Shown here: positions 1 through 15,859 of the stretch, piece by piece
How positions within the stretch are numbered: the stretch's first letter is position 1
Layout: each line of letters opens with the position of its first letter
The notes under the pieces: generated by a model
What the model saw: the letters and a program-made list of their open reading frames with translations, nothing else
Databases searched by the model: none
Told to the model about the DNA's origin: nothing
Made by a program: the position numbers and the translations under genes
Assembly (NCBI GenBank): GCA_016760525.1
Contig: JAESUW010000045.1
Span: 1 to 35,718 of the forward strand
DNA: 35,718 nucleotides
DNA from: Labilibaculum sp.
GTDB taxonomy: Bacteria > Bacteroidota > Bacteroidia > Bacteroidales > Marinifilaceae
Direction: 5' to 3'

Positions 1-821
1 TCAGTTGTAATACCTGTAGTTGCAGGAACTGCTCTTACAGAATAAGTGGCTTTGTTACTTGAATCAGCTGTATCACTATCTGGAGTACCCAATTGATCTT
101 CAGCACCAGAAACAGTCAAGATCAAATCAAAATCCAAATCTTGTCCATTAATACCTGTTGTATTTTTATTTGTACTGTAACTAATTGAGAAAGCAACTTC
201 TGTTGTACCTGCAGCAACGAGCACATTGTTTACTGTAGCAACTCCTCCTGTTATCGAAACAGCAGTTACATCACTTAAATCAAAGTCAGTTGCAATATCG
301 GTAAGGGCATAATCGAATGACCAAGATTTAGTAATATCACCATTCTGCATTTTCACCTTAAACTCGCGGGTTGTTGTTCCAAAAACATCATCGCCATTTG
401 AACCATTCGCGTTTACATCATCAACCGGGTTTAGTACTGTGGCACAAGCATCAGCAGTTGTTACTAATTCAGCATACACATCAAAAGTATTTGCCGTAAC
501 TGTAACTGAAATCTGACGAGTTGTAGGACAAGCTGCAGTAACATCAGTTCTTGTTTCTACTACTTGTAAAATATATGTACCTGCAAGTAACCATTCAACA
601 TCAGCAGTAGCACCATTCGTTGCTCCAACAAAGTTATACTCTGTTCCTGCAGTACCAGATGTTACCGTCCAAGCTAAAGTTGTTCCGGCAATACTACTTT
701 TTGTGATAGTATATGCGTGAGTAGAACCAGCATAAGGAGTTGTTCCATTATTTTGTGCTTGAGTATTCGTAATTAATAATACGCCCACAAAAACCATTAA
801 AAGTTTTAAAAGAGATTTCAT
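1..821 (-). CDS. Secreted PKD-like domain protein (partial, cut by window edge)
   Basis: This open frame starts with ATG at 819-821 and runs leftward off the window: 273 codons and no stop. The first 23 or so residues form a signal peptide (MKSLLKLLMVFVGVLLI... ending NTQAQ). Next comes a PKD-like Ig-fold domain (about residues 30-110) with the pattern W-T...WLLAGTY...ET...C...ISVTV, then a second beta-rich domain beginning near a WSFDYALT motif. It is a paralogue of the next gene upstream (842-1531) over its whole length, and the last visible residues (VPATTGITT) align with that protein's extreme C-terminus, so the true end is probably only a few codons outside the window. It lies 20 bp after that gene's stop and is probably the third gene of an operon. 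Role inferred: secreted or cell-surface structural or adhesive protein. No catalytic motif is visible. Confidence 0.75.
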   Translation of the reverse strand, partial: MKSLLKLLMVFVGVLLITNTQAQNNGTTPYAGSTHAYTITKSSIAGTTLAWTVTSGTAGTEYNFVGATNGATADVEWLLAGTYILQVVETRTDVTAACPTTRQISVTVTANTFDVYAELVTTADACATVLNPVDDVNANGSNGDDVFGTTTREFKVKMQNGDITKSWSFDYALTDIATDFDLSDVTAVSITGGVATVNNVLVAAGTTEVAFSISYSTNKNTTGINGQDLDFDLILTVSGAEDQLGTPDSDTADSSNKATYSVRAVPATTGITT

Positions 822-841
822 ATCGTTTTATTTTATGCTAA

Positions 842-1531
842 TTAAAATGTTATCGTTCCTGTATTTGGCACACCATATATAGTTACACTACCTGTAGTAT
901 CATCTCCAGCAGGGTTACCAAAACTATCTTTCACATCAGAGATGGCAACAGTAAACGTTTGATCGCTGCCATCAGCAGTATTAATCAAAGAAATTACCAA
1001 ATTATGAGTTCCTCCTGATACTGCAACATCGTTACCTACAATTTCTGAAGCTAAACCATCTGTTGTGTAATCAAAAGTCCAATCATTTGATCCATTTGTT
1101 TTTGTAAGAACAAAAGTCACATCAGTGTTCCCGGCAGATCCAGTAGCACAACTTTCAGTAATCGTAGTGCCTGAAATAGTCGCATCAGCTATAGCAACAC
1201 TGAAATCAGCATTAACCGTTACTGTCAAATTCTTTGTCGTAGAACAATCCACTCCAGTATGACTTTCTGTTTCAGTAAAAGTCATGTTGTACACTCCTGG
1301 TTTCATCCATAAAACTGTAATTGACCCTGAATTCAATGTTCCTGCAGTAATACTCCAATCCGTACCTGAGGTTCCTGATAGGGTCCACTGTAAACCATTA
1401 CTTCCACTCTCGGGAGCAACAGTATACGCTTTTGTTTCTCCAACACTTCTTGAATCTGTCTGCGCGGAGGCAGCATACCCAAGTAGTAAGAAAAAGCAAA
1501 CGCTCAATAGTTTTGTAAAATTTGTTTTCAT
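842..1531 (-). CDS. Secreted PKD-like domain protein, small paralogue
   Basis: A 229-residue protein with a signal peptide (about 1-23, cut after SAQ), a PKD-like domain (about 30-107; key pattern QWTLSG...VLWMKPGVYN...ETES...C...LTVTV) and a second beta-rich domain (about 110-218) with a WTFDYTTD motif. It ends VPNTGTITF. The neighbour at 1-821 has the same two-domain plan; the neighbour at 1550-3877 shares the N-terminal domain. It is separated from them by only 18 and 20 bp, so the three are probably co-transcribed. There is no type IX CTD of the usual 70-100 residues and no enzyme motif. Surface location is inferred from the signal peptide and fold; the exact function is unknown. Confidence 0.75.
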   Translation of the reverse strand: MKTNFTKLLSVCFFLLLGYAASAQTDSRSVGETKAYTVAPESGSNGLQWTLSGTSGTDWSITAGTLNSGSITVLWMKPGVYNMTFTETESHTGVDCSTTKNLTVTVNADFSVAIADATISGTTITESCATGSAGNTDVTFVLTKTNGSNDWTFDYTTDGLASEIVGNDVAVSGGTHNLVISLINTADGSDQTFTVAISDVKDSFGNPAGDDTTGSVTIYGVPNTGTITF

Positions 1532-1549
1532 GTTGACTGTTTTTAAATT

Positions 1550-3877
1550 TTAAAAATTTATTTCTGATGGGTTCGGTTTATGATTTACCGAAACCGTATA
1601 TGATTCTACATTTGAAATATTTCCACTTCCATCCAGAACTCTAAAAAATACAGTTGAAACCCCTTCCGGGAATTCATAACCTGATGGATCGGAACTTAAA
1701 CTCGCTCCTGTTGCTTGTACTCCATAGCTATTTGCAAAACTTGCGTCGGGAAGTTGAATTCTGTATTGAACAACAAAACCAGTGGTGCAATTATCAGAAT
1801 ATCTTCCTGCATTAAGTCCTAAACCTGTTAAAACTTTAACCTGAGGGATAATACTTTCATCATCGGCACAATCCACAATATTTAAATCTGATAAATCTGC
1901 TAGTACAGGACTCGTTACATCACGAACAACAACATTTTGATTTACAACAATCGTATTTCCGTTTCCATCATCAAAAGTCCATACTATTACATGAGTTCCC
2001 TGCGTATTATAAGTTAACGGATCTGTTGTGGTTCCTGTGATAGTTCCTGCACAATTGTCTGTTGTGCTCGGCACTGTTGCAGTTGCAGAACATCCTCCAC
2101 TTACATCAGATAGTGTTGGGATTACAGGATCGGTGGTATCATTAATGGTGATCGTCTGAGTCACATTAATGGAATTGCCACTTTCATCTGTTACGGAATA
2201 AGTCCGGACAATAAGCTCTGGAGAGGTATTACCATCTGAAACATCGCTTACAAAAACAACCGTTGGGTTGACTGTACAATTATCAGCTTCATCTGTCACA
2301 ACAGTAATATCAGGATCAGGTGCAGTGCATTGTACAATTATTGCTGCTGGATTTGAAGCTGTTGGATCAATATTATCCTCAAGAGTAACAGTAGCATTAC
2401 AAGTAGATGTATTCCCACAATTATCAGTTACTGTTAATACTGTATTTGCTGTATTTGCTAACGTAAGGGTTTGTGATACGATACCTGGGCCTGCAATACT
2501 TATCTCTATTGAATTACAACCTAAAGATTTTGGAGTAACGGTGGCACAATCAGTATTATTTGTCCAACTAGTTGAAGTATTTACACTACCTGATCCTCCT
2601 GTAGTTGGAAAGCCAAAGTACATATTACCACAAGAAACACGCCCACTTAAAGAATAAAGATTTGCTGGAATATTAACACCCGAAAAGCTAATCTCATATG
2701 CTATACTTACGGAGTAATTATAACCCCATTCACAACTATTGCCTACTGGATTAACAGATGTTGCATATGCTTTAATATATACATAGTATCCATCAGAAGA
2801 AGCTATCGTAGTACTAAACATATCACCACTATCAAAAGTACTGGGAGAAACACTTATACTTGCAATACCGCAAGCATCATAAGAACCATTATCAATTTGA
2901 GCAACATTAATACTTGCATTTCCACCAGCATTCATACTTACAGTAATATCTTGACATAATGCTGTTGGGGCTTGAGTATCATTAATGGTGATTGCCTGAG
3001 TCACATTAATGGAATTGCCACTTTCATCTGTTACGGAATAAGTCCGGACAATAAGCTCTGGACAAGTATTACCATCTGAAACATCGCTTACAAAAGCAAC
3101 AGTTGGATTAGCTGTACAATTATCGGCTTCATCTGTAACAACGCTAATATCCGCTAGCGGAATATCACTGACACACTGAACAGAGATACCTGCTGGATCA
3201 CTTGCTGTTGGATCAATATTATCTTCTACTGTTACTGTACTTTTATCATCAAGTTCCACTCCACACGATAAACTTAAATTTTCAGCATATACATTATATA
3301 CTGTCGTAGCTACTGACGTTACATTAAATGTAATATCACCACCTGTTCCAGAAACAGCAGTTCCAACATTACTATTATCACTATCCAAACGTAATTGATA
3401 GCTAATTCCAGATTCACTATTAATAAGAATTATTGATGCTGTTCCTCCTGAGCAAATAGAAGGATCACTTAAAGTTAAACTTTGATCGGGCAAACTACTT
3501 ACAGTAACTGTTATATCCATATTCGCCGAGACACACGAACCAGCGGTTTCTTCATACGCCCTAACCAAATAATCCCCTGCTGTAACATTCCACAATATCC
3601 CAATTAAACTTTCACCAGAAACAACAAGTTCACTAAACTGAAAACCAGGCGTCACCAAGTCTTGATCAATAACAACTGAACCCCCATCATAAACATCACC
3701 TCCTTGTACTGACCAATAAATTATTGACCCTTCACTTCCTTTAACCTTATATTGTCTTAATTCACCAGCACACACATCTTCCGTAGAAGACAATACTGTT
3801 TGAGCATAAAGATCAACTTTAAGCCAAAAAATTAGAAAAACCAGTATGACAAATTTTATGTAGAAATGTTTCGTCAA
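1550..3877 (-). CDS. Secreted HYR/PKD-like multi-domain protein
   Basis: A 775-residue secreted protein. The start is TTG at 3877: an in-frame stop lies two codons upstream and no ATG precedes the signal peptide (about 1-26, ending LYAQ). Domains visible: PKD-like N-domain (about 30-125) shared with the two downstream genes, an Ig-like domain (about 128-218), then HYR-type modules with TDEADNC, RTYSVTDESGNS and QAITINDT-like signatures. One HYR module is present in two nearly identical copies (see the repeat entries). The C-terminus ends KPNPSEINF. It is the first gene of a probable three-gene leftward operon. HYR modules are known from surface adhesion proteins in Bacteroidetes; the adhesin role here is inference. 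Confidence 0.8.
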   Translation of the reverse strand: MTKHFYIKFVILVFLIFWLKVDLYAQTVLSSTEDVCAGELRQYKVKGSEGSIIYWSVQGGDVYDGGSVVIDQDLVTPGFQFSELVVSGESLIGILWNVTAGDYLVRAYEETAGSCVSANMDITVTVSSLPDQSLTLSDPSICSGGTASIILINSESGISYQLRLDSDNSNVGTAVSGTGGDITFNVTSVATTVYNVYAENLSLSCGVELDDKSTVTVEDNIDPTASDPAGISVQCVSDIPLADISVVTDEADNCTANPTVAFVSDVSDGNTCPELIVRTYSVTDESGNSINVTQAITINDTQAPTALCQDITVSMNAGGNASINVAQIDNGSYDACGIASISVSPSTFDSGDMFSTTIASSDGYYVYIKAYATSVNPVGNSCEWGYNYSVSIAYEISFSGVNIPANLYSLSGRVSCGNMYFGFPTTGGSGSVNTSTSWTNNTDCATVTPKSLGCNSIEISIAGPGIVSQTLTLANTANTVLTVTDNCGNTSTCNATVTLEDNIDPTASNPAAIIVQCTAPDPDITVVTDEADNCTVNPTVVFVSDVSDGNTSPELIVRTYSVTDESGNSINVTQTITINDTTDPVIPTLSDVSGGCSATATVPSTTDNCAGTITGTTTDPLTYNTQGTHVIVWTFDDGNGNTIVVNQNVVVRDVTSPVLADLSDLNIVDCADDESIIPQVKVLTGLGLNAGRYSDNCTTGFVVQYRIQLPDASFANSYGVQATGASLSSDPSGYEFPEGVSTVFFRVLDGSGNISNVESYTVSVNHKPNPSEINF
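2136..2311. repeat. Intragenic direct repeat, copy 1
   Basis: This 176-bp segment matches 2976-3151 at about 93 percent (roughly 13 differences counted by eye), with an offset of exactly 840 bp. It includes a run of more than 60 identical bases near 2156-2222. It encodes the HYR-type segment with TVVTDEADNC and RTYSVTDESGNS. The near identity at DNA level suggests recent duplication or gene conversion inside the gene. Confidence 0.85.
2976..3151. repeat. Intragenic direct repeat, copy 2
   Basis: Second copy of the 176-bp HYR-coding repeat described at 2136-2311. The 840-bp offset is a multiple of three, so recombination between copies would remove 280 residues and keep the reading frame. Confidence 0.85.
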
Positions 3878-4224
3878 GCGCTATACTTTAAGGTTAAATT
3901 CATTTAAGAGACAACAAAATAAATCATTTTTTTCATATTACTAATCATTGATACGGCAATTGTTAAAAAGTGTTGTGTTTTTTTATTACAAACAGCTTAT
4001 TGTTTATTGAAGAATTAGCAAATTGTATGAAAATCATCCTGTTATCACTTAACACAATACTATCAAAACCCATTAGTCTATAAATATAGACACTTCATCA
4101 ATCATCCCAAACATTTAATGTAAAATATTAAAAATCGACCATCATTCTGATTTTAATCTCAGAAATCAACCAGCTTTATTTAAATTTTATACAAATAACG
4201 AACACCGCTTATACTAATAATTTA
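3878..4224. other. Gene-free spacer between two secreted-protein genes
   Basis: A 347-bp very AT-rich spacer between the 4225-8610 gene and the 1550-3877 gene, both leftward. It should hold the terminator of the former and the promoter of the latter. I see no strong hairpin with a T-run and no clean TAnnTTTG element, only a short inverted repeat at 4076-4091 (GTCTATA-AA-TATAGAC) and no credible ORF. Confidence 0.5.
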
Positions 4225-7200
4225 TTATTCATGATAAATTCCGAGAGGAATTGGCTCCGAACCTATTGTATAACTTCCAGTTTCTGTACAAGACTTTGAA
4301 TCTGTTACAGTTACAGAATAAGACCCCGGATTAAGTCCTGTTGCATTTGGGGAATCCAATCCTCCATCATGACTCCATGAGTAATTATAAAATGGATTGG
4401 AACTAAATGGAGTACCTCCCGAAACATCAACATTCAACACACCATTACTTCCATCCGAACAAAGATTACTTGATGTATTCAGAGATACAGCAGGATATGG
4501 ATTTATCAACACACCAGATATATACTCACTATTACTACAACCATTCAATTTAGTGATTGTTAATGAAAAATCTTTTGCACTTATCACAGCAACACTATAA
4601 TTCGCAGTTGTATTCGCAGAAGTAGGACTTACCAGACCAACAACAGGTGTCCATGAATAAGAATCACTGCCACTACTATTCAAAATAGTAGAAGACAAAC
4701 TAATTACTTCACTACTACAATACTCTGTTTTATCAGAAGCAATGGTAAAATGTGAATTTTCTTTAACAGTCAAAATCATAAAATCTGTATCAACACAAGA
4801 GGCCGTTGCAGAATTAAATTCTTTCACTGTTAAGGTAAACGTATACGATCCGAATGGAATGTCTGTTGACACAGTTGGGTTCGAAACATTTACATTACTT
4901 AAATAACTCAGTCCAGACACAGGAGAACAAGACCATTCATAATAAATACCTCCACTACCTTCCAACTGAACAGTTTCCCCTTCACACATTGATTTATTTG
5001 AACCAGCTTCTGCTGCAATAGGAGTAACAGTGGGCATAACAACATCGAAGCTTGCAGATTTACATGCAAAATGATCCTGAACCATAACAGTATGCGTTTC
5101 GCCCACGATAGGGTTATTTAGTGAAAAGACATTATCATCCTGAAAAGCACCACCATCCATACTATACTGATAATCTGCCGGATCCAGGCCTGCTTTAAGA
5201 TCTATAGTTATTGTGGCTACTGGCGTGGCTCCTAAACAAGAAACCAAACTGGTTGGTGAAGCCTCTATTTCTGGAACATCAATAATAGTCACAACCTTTT
5301 CGTAATAATCTGGTGCAGAACAAGGACAACTTTTCAGAAAAGAAAGGCGTAATTCTTCATCACCTTCAATTCCTGTATCTAATAGTGCTTTATAATAATA
5401 AACAACCTCATCAATTCCAGCAGGTATAGTAACCGAGTTTGGCAATTCTCCATTTCCAATCTGATTCCCCACCTGATCGACATAAACATAATCAACACCA
5501 TTTTCAGCTGATCCTGAAATATTTAAATCAAAAGTTAATTCTTCATCAAAATCTTCGGCACGAATAAATTTGATATAACTACCGTTGCAACCTTCATACA
5601 TTACATCGACATCATCTTCAACACCAATTCCGTTCTGAATTGACACCTCATTGGATTTGAAACTTTCCGCCTCCAAAAACACAGCAGAATTATATGCATC
5701 ATCCCAAACATCAGCAATTATCAATCGAATATGATATGTTTGACATGCAACAACATCTGCACTTGCTGTAAGAACACTGGTTCTACCATCGAATTGAGTT
5801 GCAAAACCTCCTGCTCCATCTACATAATAGGACGAATTACCACATCCTTGATCATTTACATTATTAATGGTAACAAAATTTGTGCTGGAAGGTAATAAAG
5901 CTATGTTTTCCCCTCCATTTAAAAATGGACCGGAAATTCCCGGACCGCTCAAAATAAAACCAAATACATCATTGTAAGATCCACAAGCATACTCTGGATA
6001 TTCCTCGGAAGCAAACAAATACCTAAATTCAAGCTTATTCCCTGCAGGCACAAAATCAAACTCTAAAATCTGAATGTCCCTTGCACTTCCATTCAACCTG
6101 TTTACATCCGCATCAACAGCAGCGCTTCCAATATTATCAGATACATTCCCACTATTAGGACCTTCAGCCTTTCTCACCCGCCCTGTAGACATAATAAGAC
6201 CCGAGGATAATGGAAAATCAGAATCTCCTGCATTAAAATACCCTACACCAAGAGTCTGATCGCCACCATATTGAACACCACTAGCTGTCAAGCAGCCTGT
6301 AACAAGAATATTCTGAACCAGATCATTGGGAGAATAAGTATTTTCCGGACTCTGTCGATCGACTCGTATTGGATCTGTTGATGGAACATCATCATCTACT
6401 ATGGTAAGCATGACCATTTGGGTTCCATTTTCAGTTCCATTTACAAGGCTGCCAACACTTACATTCAAAATCTCATCCCCCTCAACATCTACGTCATCAA
6501 CAGAACTTAAGGTTACACTAGCCGTTAAACTTCCATGAGGAACAACTATTTGAAGATTTGATATTGAATAATCTGAACTCGACGCGGTTCCCGACATAGC
6601 CAAATTAACGAACACATCGATAGAAGAAACTCCATTCAATGTAGCAGTAAGGAAGGCATTTCCACCATTTTCATTTATTGAATTTACATTAACAGACAGA
6701 CTTACCTCAGGCACAAATGGATTAACAATTACATTTAAGCTACAAGTTGCTGAATTCCCACTCGCATCTGAAACGGTAAGAACAACAACATTCGATCCTA
6801 TATCGGAAGCAGTAAAATTAGATTTGCTAAGAGTACTAGTAACGATTCCACAATTATCTATAAAGCCAGGATCTACATCGGCAGGAAGAAGAGTTGCATT
6901 ACCAGATGCATTCAATGTCAAAGTAGTTTCAATTATTGTATGATTCAGTATGGAAGATTTAGAAAAGACCTGTCTCGCAACTCCTGCATCAGCAGATGCC
7001 CATTCTAATTCAATTACAGCACCACCTCCTCTTTCATAATATTCCAGTGCAATTGTATGTTCGCCCTTACTTAAGTTTCGAGTACCACTATCAACCGTTG
7101 GACCATGATCTGTCCAATTATCTATCACGTAGGAACCATCGATAGCTAAACGCACACCATCATCAGAATTTGTATAAAAAATATAATTTCCAGTTTCCGG

Positions 7201-8610
7201 AACAACAAAACTTCCGGTATAACGAACTGAAAAATTATCATTCCCAACAAGACCTGCATTGGGTGAGCCATTACCCCAATCGGAATCAATTTCATCCACA
7301 GCCTCTGAATACAGTAAGCTATTAAAATTTATTCCCGTATAATACTCTGCATTTAAATTTAATAAAGATGGAGCTACCAAATCCTGAACAGTAAGCGTTG
7401 AAGTACAGGTAGATACATTACCATCCAGATCATTAACGGATAAAGTTATTGTATTATCTCCTAAATCAGCACAAGTAAAATCTCTTTTATCCAAGCTTAA
7501 AATTAAGTCAGATTCCGCTGTCTCAAGATCATTACTGCCATTATTTATATCCATTGGAGCTATTCTTGCATTTCCCGAAGCATCTAAACTAACTGTATAA
7601 TCTTTACAAATAGCATTTGGTGGATTTCCAACAGCAATTAACTCTCCTGTAACAGATATATTATCCACATAATAGAACTCATTAGTTGCATTATTATACA
7701 TACTTACTCTAATTACCAAATTACTTCCATTAGGTATATTAGAACAAGCCTCCTGAGCTCCTATAACATTTATAAAAGATCCATTACTGGAAAATTCTAC
7801 AAAACCAGCACCATCAACAGAATAAGAAAGGTTAATATAATCAGTATTCTCCATTTTATTCCTCCAAGAACCAACATCCATGGAGACACGAATATCTTTA
7901 AAAGCAGAAATATCTATGCTATTTGATTGCCACGTTCTGAGATTTCCTATATTAGACCCAACCATACCCCAACCACCCGATTGGTTCCCAGGATACTTTT
8001 GTCTTTTAATCTCAGTACTTGTAGAAGTTCCTTTTACTGCAGCAGTTTCAAAATTTTCAGTCCAAATAAGATCAGAACCAACAGAACATGGTGGAGATAA
8101 CACTTCAATAATTGCTTCCCATCCTTCTTCCTCTACACTACCATCCGAAACAAACCTAAAGGTTAATAAATTATCACTTGAAATTACAACACTTGGTCTA
8201 TCCGTATTTGATCCACCTGAAGTTCCATAATACCGACCTAATCTAGTTCCTCCTGTACCAGAACCATCGTAACATAGCAATCTATCATAAATCGAATTCC
8301 CCCTGTCCTCAACTTCAAATTCCACAAAAGTTACCCTAATTACCGAACCTACCGGCGCTTGAAATATGATATTAGCTCTCTGATTTCCTCCATAATCATA
8401 AGCCGCATCATAAGCTCCACTTGGATTAAATCCCCCACTATCAAAAAATCGATCCCCGCTCACCACGTTCACTGTTGTAGTACCTGAGGTTGGCATATTA
8501 TAATCTGTTTGGGCATTAACTTCTATGGAGAAACCAATAAAAGGTAAAATAACACACAGAATACGAAGTGAAAATAAAGAAAAAGAAGAATTAAGTGTAA
8601 AATCTTGCAT
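4225..8610 (-). CDS. Large secreted adhesin-like protein (CUB, PA14, Calx-beta, choice-of-anchor L, SprB/PKD)
   Basis: A 1461-residue mosaic protein. Signal peptide about 1-34 (ends VNAQ). Domains in order: CUB-like (about 36-171, with YDRLLCYDG and EGWEAIIEV), a jelly-roll-like module (about 180-325), HYR-type (about 335-410), PA14 (about 418-555; NSDDGVRLAIDG, DNWTDHGPTVDSGT), HYR-type (about 560-630), Calx-beta (about 635-741), choice-of-anchor L (about 755-985; LFASEEYPEYACGSYNDVFG), a second Calx-beta-like module (about 1000-1105), then SprB/PKD-like repeats to the end. PA14 and CUB domains commonly bind glycans or proteins; choice-of-anchor L proteins are typical of Bacteroidetes cell-surface proteins. 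The C-terminus is PIPLGIYHE, nearly the same as the upstream gene, and no standard type IX CTD follows. Probable role: surface or extracellular adhesin. Confidence 0.85.
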   Translation of the reverse strand: MQDFTLNSSFSLFSLRILCVILPFIGFSIEVNAQTDYNMPTSGTTTVNVVSGDRFFDSGGFNPSGAYDAAYDYGGNQRANIIFQAPVGSVIRVTFVEFEVEDRGNSIYDRLLCYDGSGTGGTRLGRYYGTSGGSNTDRPSVVISSDNLLTFRFVSDGSVEEEGWEAIIEVLSPPCSVGSDLIWTENFETAAVKGTSTSTEIKRQKYPGNQSGGWGMVGSNIGNLRTWQSNSIDISAFKDIRVSMDVGSWRNKMENTDYINLSYSVDGAGFVEFSSNGSFINVIGAQEACSNIPNGSNLVIRVSMYNNATNEFYYVDNISVTGELIAVGNPPNAICKDYTVSLDASGNARIAPMDINNGSNDLETAESDLILSLDKRDFTCADLGDNTITLSVNDLDGNVSTCTSTLTVQDLVAPSLLNLNAEYYTGINFNSLLYSEAVDEIDSDWGNGSPNAGLVGNDNFSVRYTGSFVVPETGNYIFYTNSDDGVRLAIDGSYVIDNWTDHGPTVDSGTRNLSKGEHTIALEYYERGGGAVIELEWASADAGVARQVFSKSSILNHTIIETTLTLNASGNATLLPADVDPGFIDNCGIVTSTLSKSNFTASDIGSNVVVLTVSDASGNSATCSLNVIVNPFVPEVSLSVNVNSINENGGNAFLTATLNGVSSIDVFVNLAMSGTASSSDYSISNLQIVVPHGSLTASVTLSSVDDVDVEGDEILNVSVGSLVNGTENGTQMVMLTIVDDDVPSTDPIRVDRQSPENTYSPNDLVQNILVTGCLTASGVQYGGDQTLGVGYFNAGDSDFPLSSGLIMSTGRVRKAEGPNSGNVSDNIGSAAVDADVNRLNGSARDIQILEFDFVPAGNKLEFRYLFASEEYPEYACGSYNDVFGFILSGPGISGPFLNGGENIALLPSSTNFVTINNVNDQGCGNSSYYVDGAGGFATQFDGRTSVLTASADVVACQTYHIRLIIADVWDDAYNSAVFLEAESFKSNEVSIQNGIGVEDDVDVMYEGCNGSYIKFIRAEDFDEELTFDLNISGSAENGVDYVYVDQVGNQIGNGELPNSVTIPAGIDEVVYYYKALLDTGIEGDEELRLSFLKSCPCSAPDYYEKVVTIIDVPEIEASPTSLVSCLGATPVATITIDLKAGLDPADYQYSMDGGAFQDDNVFSLNNPIVGETHTVMVQDHFACKSASFDVVMPTVTPIAAEAGSNKSMCEGETVQLEGSGGIYYEWSCSPVSGLSYLSNVNVSNPTVSTDIPFGSYTFTLTVKEFNSATASCVDTDFMILTVKENSHFTIASDKTEYCSSEVISLSSTILNSSGSDSYSWTPVVGLVSPTSANTTANYSVAVISAKDFSLTITKLNGCSNSEYISGVLINPYPAVSLNTSSNLCSDGSNGVLNVDVSGGTPFSSNPFYNYSWSHDGGLDSPNATGLNPGSYSVTVTDSKSCTETGSYTIGSEPIPLGIYHE

Positions 8611-8656
8611 ATTGAAATCGTTTCAGAGATATTTTAGGTTAATCAAATTGGCAAAC

Positions 8657-8732
8657 CAAAAATAATTAATTATTCTCAATTCCTTAGGAATACGAAAAAA
8701 AATATATTTTGTTTAATTTTTTTTCAAATTTA
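8657..8732 (-). promoter_or_regulatory. Candidate promoter region for the large adhesin gene
   Basis: Two perfect Bacteroidetes -7 elements (TAnnTTTG) read leftward: TAAATTTG at 8732-8725 and TATTTTTG at 8664-8657, about 115 and 47 bp ahead of the ATG at 8610. Neither has a well-spaced -33 TTTG, so either or both could be chance in such AT-rich DNA. Confidence 0.35.
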
Positions 8733-8766
8733 ATTGCGACTCAAAAAAATATTGATCAATTGGGTA

Positions 8767-10671
8767 CTATTCGTGATATATCCCTGATGGGTTGGGAACT
8801 CCCGAAATTACGACAACTGCAGTATTTGTAAGATTCGCAAGACATACTCCGCTCTGAGCTTTAAAATTAATTGTATTATTCCCAAAAGAAAATCCGACAG
8901 TTGGTATTGAAACTATAATATCTGAACCATTTCCTGTAACGGAACTTCCAATTTGAGTTCCTCCTTTATAAGCAGAATAGACAACACCACTTTCACTTAA
9001 CTGTATTGTAAGCTGCGCATCATTACCAAGACATTTCGTATCACCCAGTACAGAGAGATTAATGACAGGACCACCAATTACATTTACATCAATTACACAA
9101 TTTGACGAATTACCATTTACATCAACGACAGTGAAAGTCAACGAATTCGCACCCAAATCACTACATGTAAAATTGGTCTTACTTAGGGTTCTCGAAGCAA
9201 TTCCACATTCATCAGAATACCCCGGATCTACTTCAGCAACCGTTAAGTTGTATGAACCTGTTGCGCTAACATCGATGGTTATATCCTGGCAAGTACCTGT
9301 TCCATTGTTGCTAACAAATTCTCTTGCAAGTCCAGGTCCCTCCCATTCTAAACTAATAACTGCACCTCCGCCTAGTTCATAATACTCTAATGTGATTGGA
9401 GTAATTTGTCCTGCCAACAAAGCTATTGTGCCCGAATTAACAGTCGGTCCATGATCCGTCCAATTATCAACAAGCAACTGTCCATCAACCCACAAACGAA
9501 CTCCATCATCGGAATTTGTATAGAAAGTATAAGTTCCCGCCTGTGGAGCTTTTACATTTCCTTGAAAACGAATGGAAAAATTATCTGTTCCTACCAAGCT
9601 TGATTCCGGAGCTCCAGATCCCCAAGAATAATTTAATTCATTAACAAGTAAGCTTTCTCTGAAAGTATCGAAGTTTCGCCCGTCATAATAATCTGCTCTA
9701 AGCTGTGATATTCCAGGAGGTGTAATATCCACAACTGTCACATTAAAACTATGCGTTGATGTATTTCCACTATTATCAGTTGCTAAAAAGGTATTAACTG
9801 TTGTTCCGACAGGAAATAAAGAACCAGAAGCCAATCCTCCTGTTTGCACTACCAATGCACCTTCGAATTCGACAACGTATCGTTTATTATTTGTTCCGCT
9901 TGAGTCATTCCAACGTCCACTTGTATACATCTCAGTATGGTCTTCGTTTGAACCGGAATCATTTGGTTCCCCACTATTCCAGTTTGTATAAGCAACAAAT
10001 TCACTTGTGACCCATTGAAAATTCCCCTCAGTGTTTATATCTGTGAATCCAATCCAAATTGAAGCTCCAACCCCATTGCTTATAAAATCATTTTCAGCCT
10101 GACTTCCTATGGTAAGCAAATGCCCTCCATTATCTATTGCATTTTGGATGGCCGTAGTCGCATTCACACTATTATTTGAATAATAATAGGTATGATTATT
10201 TAGCTCACCCAAATAAGAAAATCCTGTTAAAGCCCCCGTAAATGCACTACAATTATCTGTTGCAACAGGAACCGTATAATCAGCAATTTCTCCACATGAA
10301 CTACCAGAGGCATTTACTAAGATATCTGCTTGAGGATTTTGAAAAATTGGATTTTGAGTATCATCAGCAAGCACTGTTTTATTTTGGTCATAAATATCTG
10401 ACCACCATGAAAACCACAAAAACGTCATTTTTTTGGATACAACTACCCTGTAAGTATTTTCCGGTAGATTTGAAATGGTACGAGTTGTAGAAAAATTTGA
10501 GGTAGTCCCATTAACTTTAACCCTATAATCGCCAGAAGGATTAACCGATACCGTAATTTGTCCTGATTCACCTTCACATTGGGGATTGGTAACATTTACA
10601 CTTACTGTTTGTGCACTAACAGAGTTCACAAGTAGAATTTTAATAAAAAATATCCATAAAAATTTATTCAT
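8767..10671 (-). CDS. Secreted C-type lectin/HYR/PA14 protein
   Basis: A 634-residue protein with a signal peptide (about 1-21, VSAQ), an SprB-like module (about 25-105), and a HYR domain starting near 106 that is interrupted after DNCSAFTGA by a C-type lectin domain (about 149-270; HLLTIGSQAENDF, IWIGFTD, WNSGEPND, RYVVEFEG). The HYR domain resumes at VVQTGGLASGSLFPVGTT and ends about 316. PA14 follows (about 322-455; NSDDGVRLWVDG, DNWTDHGPTVNSGT), close to the PA14 of the downstream gene, then a HYR-like and an Ig-like module. It ends VPNPSGIYHE. Ca-dependent sugar binding is a known property of many lectin domains of this fold; ligand binding by this one is inferred. It starts 118 bp from the divergent HAD gene. 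Confidence 0.85.
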   Translation of the reverse strand: MNKFLWIFFIKILLVNSVSAQTVSVNVTNPQCEGESGQITVSVNPSGDYRVKVNGTTSNFSTTRTISNLPENTYRVVVSKKMTFLWFSWWSDIYDQNKTVLADDTQNPIFQNPQADILVNASGSSCGEIADYTVPVATDNCSAFTGALTGFSYLGELNNHTYYYSNNSVNATTAIQNAIDNGGHLLTIGSQAENDFISNGVGASIWIGFTDINTEGNFQWVTSEFVAYTNWNSGEPNDSGSNEDHTEMYTSGRWNDSSGTNNKRYVVEFEGALVVQTGGLASGSLFPVGTTVNTFLATDNSGNTSTHSFNVTVVDITPPGISQLRADYYDGRNFDTFRESLLVNELNYSWGSGAPESSLVGTDNFSIRFQGNVKAPQAGTYTFYTNSDDGVRLWVDGQLLVDNWTDHGPTVNSGTIALLAGQITPITLEYYELGGGAVISLEWEGPGLAREFVSNNGTGTCQDITIDVSATGSYNLTVAEVDPGYSDECGIASRTLSKTNFTCSDLGANSLTFTVVDVNGNSSNCVIDVNVIGGPVINLSVLGDTKCLGNDAQLTIQLSESGVVYSAYKGGTQIGSSVTGNGSDIIVSIPTVGFSFGNNTINFKAQSGVCLANLTNTAVVVISGVPNPSGIYHE

Positions 10672-11867: not shown

Positions 11868-11995
11868 AGTTTCACCGCAGAGGCAAACAAAGGACTTCAC
11901 AAAGAAACACAAAACAAAACCGGTTTTACCACGGAAGACAGAAAGGGACACAGTGTATTGACTTTTGAGCTCTTGGACTTTTAGACTCTTCTTAC
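11868..11995. repeat. Dispersed-repeat-like intergenic sequence
   Basis: This non-coding stretch carries the words TTCACCGCAGAGGCAAAC, TTTACCACGGAAGACAGAAA and GAGCTCTTGGACTTTTAGAC. Purine-rich ACCGCAGAG / ACCACGGA words of this kind are familiar as dispersed intergenic sequence in many bacterial genomes. Only one copy is in the window, so the repeat status rests on recognition rather than on a second copy. The 65-codon frame reading leftward through it is low complexity and not believed to be a gene. Confidence 0.45.
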
Positions 11996-13281
11996 GTTTT
12001 TCTCTTCTTCTTTTTTGCTGCAGGGAACAAAACATTATTTAATATTAGACGATAACCCGCCGAATTCTTTTTCAAATTAAGATCTGTTGGCGGATCTCCA
12101 ACTAAATGTTGATAATCTTCGGGGTCGTGACCTCCATAAAAAGTCCAGGTTCCTTTTCCAAAATTCCCATGAATATATCTTGCCTCACCCGCCAATTTAT
12201 TTTCTCCCAGAACAAGCACATTGGGCTTAATTAACTCCAACTTAAAAGCTGTGGTTTGTCCCATAAAACCTTTTATCAGATTCTTATGGTTTTGACACAA
12301 CATTGTTGGAATGGGATCCCATTTGGCTGAAAACTCGAATAAGGAAAAATAATCTTCATCTTTCCTTATCTTCCTGGTTAAAGTCACATCAATATCCGAG
12401 AATTCATACACATTAGGATTTTTCTCGATTGTAAAATTCTGAAAAGCGAACGTTTTTGAGTAATCCAGGTGAGATTGAACATCTGGTTCTATGGGATCCC
12501 CATCGAACACAGCATCACAAATATCATGTTCTCCCGATGCCAGTGTTATATCAAAAGTATCGGTAGCAGAACACATAGCAAACAAAAAACCACCAGCCTC
12601 AACGAAGCTTTTTATTTTTACAGATATTGCTTTTTTCAGATCTGAAACCTTCGAAAAACCATACCGATTAGCTACTTCCAAATTTGCTTGCACCCCATCC
12701 TTATACCATTTCATATTTCGGTAAGCCGTATAAAATTTCCCAAACTGTCCGGTAAAATCCTCATGATGCAAGTGCAACCAATCATACTTGGACAGCTTTC
12801 CTGTCATTACCTCATCATCATAAATTATGTCATAAGGAATTTCAGCATAACTAAGAGCTAGTGTAACAGCATCATCCCAAGGCTTCTTTCCTTTTGGAGA
12901 GTAGACTGCAATTAATGGTGGTTTTTCCAACTTAACGGCATCCATATTGAGTTCATCACTCGAAATATCAGTCAATATTTGCTGTGCAGAAATATCACTA
13001 ACAACAGAAAAACCAACTCCTCGTATCAAACACTCATCTTGTATTTCTTTATGGAATGGAACCAAAAAAGAACCTCCACGATAATTTAACAGCCAATATA
13101 TCTCGTAATTCTTTTCCAAAGACCAAAATGCAATACCATAAGCCTTTAAATGATTCTTCTGAGTATCATCCATCTGTATCAATAAACTTGCAGAATAGGA
13201 TGCACAAGCAGTCATAACGAGAAATAGAAGCAAAACTATTTTTCGAAAAAATCTTTTCAAGAACAATCTATCCTCAATCAT
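11992..13281 (-). CDS. Conserved Bacteroidetes exported protein of unknown role (often named 'asparagine synthetase B')
   Basis: A 429-residue protein with an N-terminal hydrophobic export signal (about 13-30; the VMTAC segment is a poor lipobox, so ordinary signal peptidase cleavage after ASYS is as likely). Conserved stretches include LIQMDDTQKNHLKAYGIAF, PWDDAVTLALSYAEIPYD, YDWLHLHHEDFTGQ, FAMCSATDTFDI, GFMGQTTAFK and TWTFYGGHDPEDYQHLVGDP. I recognise the family from other Bacteroidetes, where databases often call it asparagine synthetase B. However, no N-terminal Cys nucleophile or synthetase PP-loop is present, so that name is not supported. The His- and Asp-rich motifs hint at an enzyme or a glutamine-amidotransferase-like fold; this is inference. 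It begins 37 bp after the dnaB stop, so probably the second gene of that operon. The tail is KKKKRKT. Confidence 0.75.
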   Translation of the reverse strand: MIEDRLFLKRFFRKIVLLLFLVMTACASYSASLLIQMDDTQKNHLKAYGIAFWSLEKNYEIYWLLNYRGGSFLVPFHKEIQDECLIRGVGFSVVSDISAQQILTDISSDELNMDAVKLEKPPLIAVYSPKGKKPWDDAVTLALSYAEIPYDIIYDDEVMTGKLSKYDWLHLHHEDFTGQFGKFYTAYRNMKWYKDGVQANLEVANRYGFSKVSDLKKAISVKIKSFVEAGGFLFAMCSATDTFDITLASGEHDICDAVFDGDPIEPDVQSHLDYSKTFAFQNFTIEKNPNVYEFSDIDVTLTRKIRKDEDYFSLFEFSAKWDPIPTMLCQNHKNLIKGFMGQTTAFKLELIKPNVLVLGENKLAGEARYIHGNFGKGTWTFYGGHDPEDYQHLVGDPPTDLNLKKNSAGYRLILNNVLFPAAKKKKRKT

Positions 13282-13318: not shown

Positions 13319-14851
13319 CTAAAAAGGAGCTGCATTATCAAAATCAGTCCCTCCATTTAATCCAGCATTAAAATCGTCAAAACCAGAGGGTTCCTGATTC
13401 ATACTTGAGCTGAATGTTTTCACATCCTCTGCCCCTGCATCGTCAAATGCTGATAATGATTCTCCTTCCAAGTCGGTAAATCTAGCTAAATTAGTACGGA
13501 AACGAAGCTGAATTTCACCTACCGCACCATTACGGTGTTTCGCAATAATAATATCGGCAATACCAATTAATGAATTTCCTTCAGCATCTTCAGTAATACC
13601 ATATCGCTCCGGGCGATGGATAAACAACACCATATCAGCATCCTGCTCAATCGCACCCGATTCACGTAAATCGGAAAGCATTGGTTTCTTCGCATCACCT
13701 GTTCTTTGTTCAACACCACGATTCAACTGAGAAAGTGCAATTACCGGTACATTTAATTCTTTTGCAATAATTTTTAGCTGTCGCGATATTAAACTTACTT
13801 CCTGTTCACGGTTACCACGCATATCAGAACCAGCTGTCATAAGTTGCAAATAATCAATTACTATACAACTAATATCATGTTTTGCTTTTAATCTACGACA
13901 CTTTGACCGCAATTCATAAATAGACAAACCTGGTGTATCATCAACATAGATTGGAGCTTCAATAAGATCTTTAATTTTAACATGTAACTGTTCCCATTCA
14001 AAATCCTCCAGACGTCCGCTTCTTAATTTTTCCGATCCCAATTCCGTTTCACTGGATATCAAACGTTTTACCAGCTGATCAGCACCCATCTCGAGTGAGA
14101 AGATAGCTATTGGTGATTTATGGTCAACAGCCATATTTCGTGCCATCGACAACACAAATGCTGTTTTTCCCATAGAAGGACGAGCAGCAATAATCACCAA
14201 ATCGGACTTTTGCCATCCCGATGTAATTCGATCCAAAGCAGTAAAGCCAGAAGGAACACCACTCAAACCGTCGGTTCGTTTTCCTGCTTCTACAATTTGA
14301 TTAATCACCTCATCTGCCAAAGGGCGAATATGAGAAGATTCTTTCTTAATATTTCCTTCTGCTATTTCAAAAACGTCCTGTTGAGCTCTATCCAAAAGAT
14401 CAGCTACATCGACACTCTCATCGAAAGCTTGAGATTGTATCTCGGAAGAAACTCGTATTAATTCTCTCTGAATGAATTTTTGAGCAATAATTCTCGCATG
14501 AAAATCGATATGAGCAGCCGAAGCAACTCTATTAGTAAGTTGAGTAATGTAAAACGGACCTCCAACATCTTCCAAAGTGCCTTGTCGTTTCAATTCCTCT
14601 GTCACTGTTAAAATATCAACAGGTTCCTCGTTAATTGATAAAGATAAAATGGCTTTGTATATTTTCTGGTGAGCATCCTTATAGAATGAATCTGCATTTA
14701 AAATATCCCCTACCGAAATCATTGCATCTTTTTCGAGCATTAACGCTCCCAAAACAGCTTCCTCAAGCTCCAAAGCCTGCGGAGGAACTTTCCCGTAATC
14801 AAGATCTACTTTATTCTTAGGTTTATTGTTATACTTATTTGCCTCAGCCAT
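13319..14851 (-). CDS. dnaB: Replicative DNA helicase DnaB
   Basis: A 510-residue helicase. The N-terminal DnaB domain covers about 20-125 (VPPQALELEEAVLGALMLE); the RecA-like C-terminal domain about 190-460 has Walker A AARPSMGKTAF at 222-232, FSLEMGADQL, Walker B CIVIDYLQLM at about 329-338 and SQLNRGVEQR. It unwinds DNA at the replication fork as a hexamer and recruits primase. The acidic, Asn/Gly-rich C-terminal tail after about 465 is expected to be disordered. No intein is present. It is probably co-transcribed with the 11992-13281 gene and divergent from ispE. Confidence 0.97.
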   Translation of the reverse strand: MAEANKYNNKPKNKVDLDYGKVPPQALELEEAVLGALMLEKDAMISVGDILNADSFYKDAHQKIYKAILSLSINEEPVDILTVTEELKRQGTLEDVGGPFYITQLTNRVASAAHIDFHARIIAQKFIQRELIRVSSEIQSQAFDESVDVADLLDRAQQDVFEIAEGNIKKESSHIRPLADEVINQIVEAGKRTDGLSGVPSGFTALDRITSGWQKSDLVIIAARPSMGKTAFVLSMARNMAVDHKSPIAIFSLEMGADQLVKRLISSETELGSEKLRSGRLEDFEWEQLHVKIKDLIEAPIYVDDTPGLSIYELRSKCRRLKAKHDISCIVIDYLQLMTAGSDMRGNREQEVSLISRQLKIIAKELNVPVIALSQLNRGVEQRTGDAKKPMLSDLRESGAIEQDADMVLFIHRPERYGITEDAEGNSLIGIADIIIAKHRNGAVGEIQLRFRTNLARFTDLEGESLSAFDDAGAEDVKTFSSSMNQEPSGFDDFNAGLNGGTDFDNAAPF

Positions 14852-14953
14852 AAAACACTAAATTCTAATAATTCTTTTTCCCTTTAAAATCAACATCCTA
14901 AGTATTATTTTCTCCCTCAAAAAGAGTTCTGGAAAAATTACAGAATGCAGTGT

Positions 14954-14961
14954 CAAAGATA
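14954..14961 (-). promoter_or_regulatory. -7 element, dnaB promoter
   Basis: TATCTTTG read leftward is a perfect TAnnTTTG element, about 100 bp before the dnaB ATG. The -33 element is not obvious. Confidence 0.45.
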
Positions 14962-15043
14962 GAAAATAAAAATACTACTAATTGATTTTTTTTGCTCTTA
15001 TAAATCAAGTATTTTTACCATTCAATCATAAAACTTATTACTT

Positions 15044-15859
15044 GTGCTTCGCTTCCCAAATGCTAAAATTAATATTGGATTAAATATTGTTGAGAAAAGA
15101 ACCGACGGATTTCACAACATCGAAACTATTTTCTATCCCATCCCTCTTGCTGATGGATTGGAAATATCCGATTCGGACAATAAAAACAAGTACAACTTCA
15201 AGTCATCCGGTATCCCGATAAATATCGATGACAAGGATAATATTGTTTGTAAAGCGTTTGATTTACTTCATGCAAAACACAGCATTCCATCAACCAATAT
15301 CCATTTACACAAAAACATTCCTTTTGGTGCAGGATTGGGAGGCGGTTCTTCAGATGCAGCCTTTATGATCAAAATGCTGAACGAACAGTACAAACTAAGA
15401 ATTCCATCTAACTCAATGGAAAATCTGGCGGGACAACTAGGCAGCGATTGTTCTTTTTTCATTAACAACAAACCCGTTTTTGCAGAAGGAAAAGGAGATA
15501 TTTTCTCTGAAGCAGACATTAAGCTTTCCGGATATCACATCCTATTAGTAAAGCCCAATATCCATATAAGTACACCTGAAGCTTATTCCAATGTTATACC
15601 TTCATACCCCAGTAAATCATTAAAAGAACTTATTCTAAATCCCATTGAAAACTGGAAACATTTAATCTTTAATGATTTTGAAAACAGTATATTCCCCAAT
15701 CATCCTGAATTAAAAGAAATTAAAAATAAACTATACAACATGGGTGCAATTTATGCTTCGATGTCGGGTAGCGGATCTTCAATATTTGGAATTTTTAGAG
15801 ATGAACAGAAATGCCCTAAAATATGGAATGATTATTTTTTCTGGACTGGAACATTATAA
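15044..15859 (+). CDS. ispE: 4-diphosphocytidyl-2-C-methyl-D-erythritol kinase
   Basis: A 271-residue GHMP kinase of the non-mevalonate isoprenoid pathway; it phosphorylates the 2-hydroxyl of CDP-methylerythritol. Motif 1 is PNAKINIGL with Lys8; the glycine-rich ATP loop PFGAGLGGGSSDAA is at 93-106; the catalytic Asp is in LGSDCSFF (about D135); a C-terminal MSGSGSSIFGIF loop is present. The start is GTG at 15044, placing the PNAKINIGL motif at the usual distance from the N-terminus. It is a single gene divergent from dnaB and closed by a strong terminator. Confidence 0.95.
   Translation: MLRFPNAKINIGLNIVEKRTDGFHNIETIFYPIPLADGLEISDSDNKNKYNFKSSGIPINIDDKDNIVCKAFDLLHAKHSIPSTNIHLHKNIPFGAGLGGGSSDAAFMIKMLNEQYKLRIPSNSMENLAGQLGSDCSFFINNKPVFAEGKGDIFSEADIKLSGYHILLVKPNIHISTPEAYSNVIPSYPSKSLKELILNPIENWKHLIFNDFENSIFPNHPELKEIKNKLYNMGAIYASMSGSGSSIFGIFRDEQKCPKIWNDYFFWTGTL

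Follow-up and report, generated by a model that had tools for sequence, protein, structure and literature searches.

The five leftwards-transcribed genes at the left end of the window, the 35,718-nucleotide stretch of DNA analysed here (the whole contig G000:C125:1-35718), stand at the head of a conserved operon, which the contig edge interrupts. The operon probably specifies a hetero-oligomeric fibre built in gene order, in which the short C-terminal tail of each subunit would dock on a PKD/Ig-like domain (D1) at the N-terminus of the protein encoded next, and only the base protein would carry a T9SS type B signal. The case for the tail as a connector is strong, and that for the tail as a strand donated to the next D1 is moderate; export of the chain as a whole is conjecture.

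All five genes lie on the minus strand, and the open reading frames confirm both the genes and their ends as described in the initial annotation. The predicted proteins start with signal-peptide-like stretches, and neither a type A nor a type B C-terminal sorting domain (CTD) was found in them, as had also been noted. The first gene encodes a secreted-type protein (tip 1; 8767..10671) that combines C-type lectin, HYR, and PA14 domains, lacks the N-terminal acceptor D1, and ends in the tail VPNPSGIYHE (8770..8799). Tip 2 (4225..8610) similarly lacks D1 and contains CUB, PA14, and choice-of-anchor L domains, a SprB-like repeat scoring below its cut-off, and the tail EPIPLGIYHE (4228..4257). The third gene product, g3 (1550..3877), has an N-terminal D1 acceptor (3497..3808; residues 24–127, D1 profile E 4.5e-12), HYR-type domains, and the tail HKPNPSEINF (1553..1582); its D1 is the predicted receiver of the GIYHE-type tips. 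The small subunit g4 (842..1531) consists of a D1 (approximately 1211..1468, a limit estimated from alignment within a profile match at 845–1471), a second domain, and the tail GVPNTGTITF (845..874). The small subunit g5 (3..821) is truncated at the contig edge and has a D1 (approximately 498..761, similarly estimated; profile match 3–761) and the tail AVPATTGITT (3..32), whose last residue is cut; its orthologs end VPATTGITTD, VPATTGIITD, or VPATTGILTD.

Gene order is constant among the 24 operons compared, all from the window's own family: tip adhesins are followed by g3 and small two-domain subunits, then by one base protein, and then by a PorP/SprF gene. The tip adhesins have a tail and no N-terminal acceptor, g3 and the small subunits have an N-terminal PKD/Ig-like D1, a second domain, and a tail, and the base has a D1 and a T9SS type B sorting domain and is tailless. 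An N-terminal D1 (E<1e-3) is present in all 23 bases, in 133 of the 137 tailed proteins at middle positions, and in none of 18 tip-type proteins, with eight further N-termini being cut. The type B domain (TIGR04131) is matched in the L004 base (E 4.1e-11) and in a base fragment from the window's own genome (L019; E 2.1e-12), the other bases being assigned by CHU_C-like sequence alone; the PorP/SprF gene directly downstream of the base matches TIGR03519 in L004 and in the own genome and was recognised by reading the genes in the remaining operons. PorP/SprF and CHU_C neighbours had been guessed from the window alone, and they do exist, beyond the contig edge on contig C144 of the same genome. 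All 23 bases contain an LP-type tail-like stretch after the second domain, and in each of eight bases examined a D1-profile match (E 9.5e-6 to 0.025) lies just behind it. In a paralogous base the match begins only at residue ~110–120, and at 14 loci (located by script among 16 fetched, the end pattern missing L083 and L084) this paralog never has an N-terminal D1, a tailed gene close upstream, or an adjacent PorP/SprF gene.

The pattern P-x(4,5)-[IVLMF]-x(1,3)-end, defined once the tails had been inspected, describes 134 of the 140 different tails in the operons vs 22 of 437 other ORFs of at least 150 aa at the same loci, an enrichment beyond chance. Among the other ORFs that are crudely secreted-like, 9 of 95 fit, and five of these nine are further operon-type proteins that had previously been uncounted. 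When 35 divergent subunits are aligned, mean column identity is 22%, with the tail Pro and two Cys invariant and the tail Ile conserved in at least 90%; Pfam comparison of the 35 yields two PKD models, each matched by one member. An invariant Pro and near-invariant Ile, together with disagreement between two docking models (below), might also be expected if the tail were a covalent joint or a cleavage site (isopeptide, transpeptidase, or protease) acting without strand insertion. However, no other tail column reaches 90% in this alignment, so there is no fixed Lys, Asn, or Asp, and no obvious enzyme gene was seen in L004 and L008, which were read fully, or at the gene ends of the other operons; this alternative is very improbable.

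The tails form a position-specific set that changes with the downstream neighbour. Tail similarity was compared over 11,597 pairs, which are not independent because the operons are related and some (L004, L005, L009, and L053) are near-identical and were retained; L006, a near-duplicate of L056, was excluded. It is 0.81 where the own last domain and the next D1 are both alike (222 pairs), 0.38 where only the own last domain is alike (101 pairs), 0.49 where only the next D1 is alike (76 pairs), and 0.24 where both are unlike (9896 pairs), the remaining pairs being intermediate between these classes. Regression over 156 tails gives standardised weights of 0.39 for the next D1, 0.25 for the own last domain, 0.15 for the own D1, 0.09 for the 26 residues of the same protein that precede the tail, -0.09 for the next second domain, and 0.00 for the next signal peptide; the partial r for the next D1 is 0.30, a value reached in 0 of 999 permutations. 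The tail thus follows the D1 of the protein encoded next, beyond its dependence on its own body, and the N-terminal domain of that protein is its likely partner.

Within the g7 family (20 loci) the partial r for the next D1 is 0.67 (0 of 999 permutations). If the gene that follows is of the g8 type, the g7-family tail is KPxIxxIxLN-like; if it is g7b, the tail is LPAKPxITVKN or LPAKPIITIIN. A third gene type is preceded by PIVDDINY or PTVSDIEY, and the base, where it follows immediately, by KPVISGTIIVN. Within this family the next second domain is also weighted (0.28 vs 0.42 for the next D1), so the two are not cleanly separable. The code relating tail and acceptor is loose, as similar acceptors can be preceded by different tails (L003/L007 g7b vs L057/L063/L064; T about 0.2). 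Tip tails remain alike despite differing next genes, which fits docking only if the g3 acceptor is common to all tips.

Two of the operons, L003 and L005, differ by a natural cassette swap. Their DNA is about 97% identical through g7 as far as its last 12–13 codons; the subunit genes beyond the start of the g7 tail differ (two vs one), and identity resumes at the base ATG (58/60 and 60/60). The exchanged DNA extends from the g7 tail codons to the base ATG. That cassette exchange does occur is in keeping with an explanation in which the tail is simply the final strand of the protein's own last domain and co-variation reflects only recombination of neighbouring DNA, as are the weight of the own last domain (0.25) and that of the next second domain in the g7 family. 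However, the exchange border coincides with the start of the tail, within g7, and does not fall at the end of that gene; and when all tails are taken together, neither the signal peptide nor the second domain of the next protein contributes anything beyond the next D1. Moreover, tails of unrelated bodies preceding the same acceptor type can match (L057/L058 and L062/L063; T about 0.55), and one tail type is common to tips that do not adjoin the acceptor gene. We consider this explanation unlikely. The narrower proposal that the tail is just the final strand of one Ig-domain family does not hold, because unrelated last domains can carry like tails before alike next D1s and because the single body family g7 bears several tail types.

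Two fusions are also present. In L069, a divergent operon, two complete neighbouring subunits are fused and the tail is retained inside as a linker, and the L004 g3 protein has a start like the CUB tips and a body like g3, without the GIYHE tail and without the g3 D1. The L069 linker bears on the proposal that the T9SS or PorP/SprF recognises the tail, instead of a CTD, as a brief signal for secretion or sorting, since a terminal signal could not work at an internal position. The signal-peptide-like starts and lack of a CTD in the window proteins, the absence of any Pfam CTD match in the 35 subunits, and the type B substrate and PorP/SprF at the operon end are all compatible with such a signal, yet tails vary by position within one operon served by one PorP/SprF, tracking the next gene; it is quite unlikely. 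Of the functions proposed in the initial annotation, assembly onto a partner is thus the one favoured by the sequence evidence, whereas a sorting or processing signal common to all five proteins is not supported, the tails being position-specific and the last protein of the operon, followed by PorP/SprF, bearing a normal type B CTD.

Docking of the tail on the next D1 is fitted by one of two AlphaFold read-through models, which were judged from alignment ranges and secondary structure, without coordinates; alignments A1, A4, and A5, in which unpaired second subunits were aligned to the first half, were excluded from folding. In the g7–g8 model a PKD domain (1l0q_A) aligns to residues 215..328 (81 residues, 2.2 Å, Z 9.2) and a Sas6 domain (7uww_A) to 215..326 (80 residues, 2.2 Å, Z 8.8), both alignments omitting long low-confidence stretches. 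The g8 D1 accounts for at most 75 aligned residues, and by count at least five tail residues would therefore lie within the neighbour's domain; confidence in this model is modest (pLDDT 72.8, pTM 0.53; pLDDT 46 over 221–230). In the g3–g4 model from the window the tail is disordered (pLDDT <50 from residue 118) and D1-starting matches begin at 151–158, downstream of the tail. A profile of covalent tandem domains does not support the strand idea: joining each tail to the next D1 gives a mean gain of 1.27 vs 1.08 bits for shuffled tails, with 70 of 156 above the mean shuffled and 89 of 156 above the mean background score. The best match in a sequence search of solved structures has an E value of 0.66.

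In the fibre proposed here, subunits would reach the periplasm through their own signal peptides, and each tail would most likely supply the first beta-strand missing from the next D1, a donor-strand type of complementation from C-terminal tail to N-terminal domain. If each tail docks on the next D1, gene order is fibre order, running from exchangeable tip adhesins (lectin, PA14, and CUB) through g3 and small spacer subunits to the base, which has an acceptor D1 and is tailless and whose type B C-terminus the PorP/SprF protein encoded next to it is expected to handle. With each tail plugged into the next protein, the last protein alone would need an export and anchoring signal. A more tentative extension, which we think possible although doubtful, is that what the T9SS exports is a train of non-covalently joined proteins: tips and shaft subunits, themselves signal-less, would be linked by their tails to the base in the periplasm, and its single type B CTD would take all of them across the translocon and onto the PorP/SprF shuttle, and perhaps onto the gliding track.

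The operon parallels the SprB–SprF type gliding adhesins of Flavobacterium johnsoniae in its TIGR04131 base directly before a TIGR03519 PorP/SprF and in its Ig/PKD-like and SprB-like modules; here, however, shaft and tips are divided among several proteins. Among 40 further PorP/SprF loci of the class, chosen from the matches listed, the motif located PorP in 35, of which 22 have one upstream CHU_C-motif protein (612–4113 aa), five are without a close upstream gene, and one (L133) has two loose tail-pattern matches; none of the 35 has as many as three consecutive genes for tailed secreted proteins. Chaperone-usher pili are assembled by donor-strand exchange and resemble the proposed fibre in that a neighbour's strand would complete an Ig-like subunit and in their tip-to-base order, but in the operons described here the donor is C-terminal, the acceptor N-terminal, and the subunits differ from one another, their gene order being fixed. 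Reading L004 and L008 fully, and the other operons at their gene ends, revealed no usher or periplasmic chaperone genes. Strand complementation is reportedly also proposed for the type V pili FimA/Mfa1 of Porphyromonas gingivalis (PMC4789730), another member of the Bacteroidota. None of the 35 subunits matches FimA/Mfa Pfam models (E 0.01), no lipobox Cys was seen by eye in the signal-peptide-like starts, most of which end in AQ or GQ, and the operon differs in having a T9SS type B base. The best whole-chain structural matches of the two-subunit model are to the Aureispira grappling-hook protein GhpA (Z 8.5–11.4), but the matched parts are fragments of one giant polypeptide, and the rmsd of 8.5–19.9 Å over the chain indicates a general bead-string likeness only.

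Among 395 genomes drawn from the phylum, 30 gave matches to the subunit profile, with G000 the sole one from the window's family. Of the other 29, 13 were inspected at one region each, and these regions contained long multidomain ORFs or ordinary genes and no tailed chain. In other lineages, 175 D1-profile matches are within long multidomain ORFs, and the L004 g6 protein gave a single weak match (E 3.2e-4) when 198 genomes from the order were searched; other bacteria may possess such chains with unrelated sequences. No report of such a tail or chain was found in the open part of the literature that was searched.

If correct, these operons would encode a multi-subunit surface fibre on a T9SS type B base whose assembly order can be read from gene order and tail/acceptor pairs, and whose tip adhesins would be exchangeable through the swap of a ten-residue tail. 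This would explain how Bacteroidota secreted proteins without a sorting domain may travel on a partner, and makes T9SS transport of pre-assembled complexes a testable question.

The five leftward genes reported in the initial annotation, together with their C-terminal ends, are confirmed on the window sequence, and Pfam and NCBIfam detect no T9SS C-terminal domain in any of the five proteins. The window spans an entire contig from a genome that is 63% complete, so the locus is cut within its fifth gene; the end of the base (the last protein of the chain) and its PorP/SprF gene lie on a separate contig of the same genome (C144, L019). A g4 scan of GTDB contigs yields eight relatives (five Labilibaculum, one Marinifilaceae MAG, Marinifilum and Ancylomarina) that reveal the operon past the window's edge. 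From the tips the operon runs through g3, the small subunits and the base to PorP/SprF, with TIGR04131 on the base of locus L004 and TIGR03519 on the gene directly after it. Within the window's family, 35 of 56 genomes give matches to the L004 base, many via other repeat proteins; 22 among the matches listed are base orthologs, aligning near end-to-end (in G233 over most of the length). Twenty base loci were fetched, and 24 operons were used after duplicate removal, including the window and some cut at contig ends. Uncut operons have 6 to 11 genes ahead of PorP/SprF by our own gene lists, which end at gaps >1.8 kb and omit more distant tips of L060, L061 and L067.

A 429-aa protein with a signal-peptide-like start (window 11992–13281) is kept beside the operon in Labilibaculum relatives, and a conserved ~162–175-aa protein (IENRI...) with no obvious signal peptide lies between the tips and g3 (L059:2530–3018, L060, L061). 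A paralogous base (L070:13871–16201, L071–L085) is missing the first ~115 residues, has no D1 domain, mostly adjoins an ABC transporter gene, and occurs, among the matches listed, in most genomes having the fibre operon; close upstream tailed subunits and an adjacent PorP/SprF are absent in 14 of 14 loci checked.

A profile of D1, the proposed N-terminal acceptor domain, built from 35 subunits, matches the N-termini of 23/23 bases, 133/137 middle proteins and 0/18 proteins with a tip-type tail (G-[IVL]-[FY]-x(0,4)), eight N-termini being cut. The four exceptions are L004 g3, which has a CUB-tip-like start on a g3 body, L059 g3 and L060 g3, neither of which matches, and L067's first protein (E 0.22). 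Otherwise, every tailed protein comes before one that has an acceptor domain, either immediately or beyond other tips, and the base is the last acceptor and has no tail.

Tails were compared across operons with their own last domain, own D1 and preceding 26 residues, and with the next D1, second domain and signal peptide, in pairs that are not independent. Over all tails the next D1 weighs most, followed by the protein's own body; neither the next second domain nor the next signal peptide contributes further, even though the signal peptide sits between the tail and the next D1 in the DNA. Within the g7 family (20 loci) the next D1 again ranks highest (0.42; next second domain 0.28), and tail type switches according to the following gene. 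Similar acceptors are sometimes paired with different tails, so pairing is not one-to-one.

Loci L003 and L005 are ~97% identical in DNA as far as the g7 tail codons, beyond which the subunit genes differ until near-identity resumes at the base ATG, a clean natural exchange of a fibre-subunit cassette between close relatives (L003:12474–14705; L005:3883–5391). In L069, a divergent operon, the gene preceding the base (13868–15229) encodes 453 aa: two complete subunits naturally fused, joined by FEQPDINDIVAD at the expected tail end, with the tail retained as an internal linker. All 23 bases have an LP-type stretch (LPNT, LPDT, LPST or LPNP) after the second domain, followed in the eight bases examined by a weak to moderate D1-profile match (E 9.5e-6 to 0.025). 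Long multidomain ORFs of other lineages typically have tail-resembling stretches ahead of D1 relatives (140 distinct, 70 inspected), such as VTVNPLPTPSISG, comprising one domain's end and the next one's start; this likeness is a resemblance only, because a quantitative comparison with the tails was negative.

A read-through model of L004 g7 into g8 (pLDDT 72.8, pTM 0.53) aligns with the 1l0q PKD domain (2.2 Å over 81 residues) and a Sas6 domain (2.2 Å over 80 residues), both ranges starting in the g7 tail and continuing into g8 D1; the free g8 tail has no strand. These ranges, rather than coordinates, suggest that the g7 tail may form a strand in g8 D1. The window g3-into-g4 model does not show this arrangement and has a tail of very low confidence; the proposed docking geometry derives from one of two read-throughs.

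No such chain was found outside the window's family in the regions and PorP/SprF loci examined, by a search that chains of unrelated sequence would escape, nor a description of one in the literature searched (open library only). Locus L161 (G687:C58:22300–37300), possibly another multi-subunit locus, has four consecutive short secreted-like ORFs ahead of a 2698-aa CHU_C protein and PorP/SprF, three of them ending in HQALIRT- or QALVRV-like stretches; L151 is similar. In L122 (G425:C34:6000–25900), four or more similar secreted-type proteins of 882–1301 aa lie in a row, forming an expanded family.

Only the base carries a T9SS signal in the operon. Type B substrates depend on a cognate PorP/SprF shuttle, according to PMC12618676. 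A Cys-x-Cys pair in the SprF C-tail bonds with GldK of the gliding track (PMC12635249); the operon PorP/SprF C-termini share a single-Cys SCPKF motif (14 distinct ends; L004:16726–17790 and orthologs). Labilibaculum glides and has cell appendages 30–40 nm wide, and nothing links these to the operon; Marinifilum and Ancylomarina, described as non-motile in the same source (PMC5760507), carry the operon as well.
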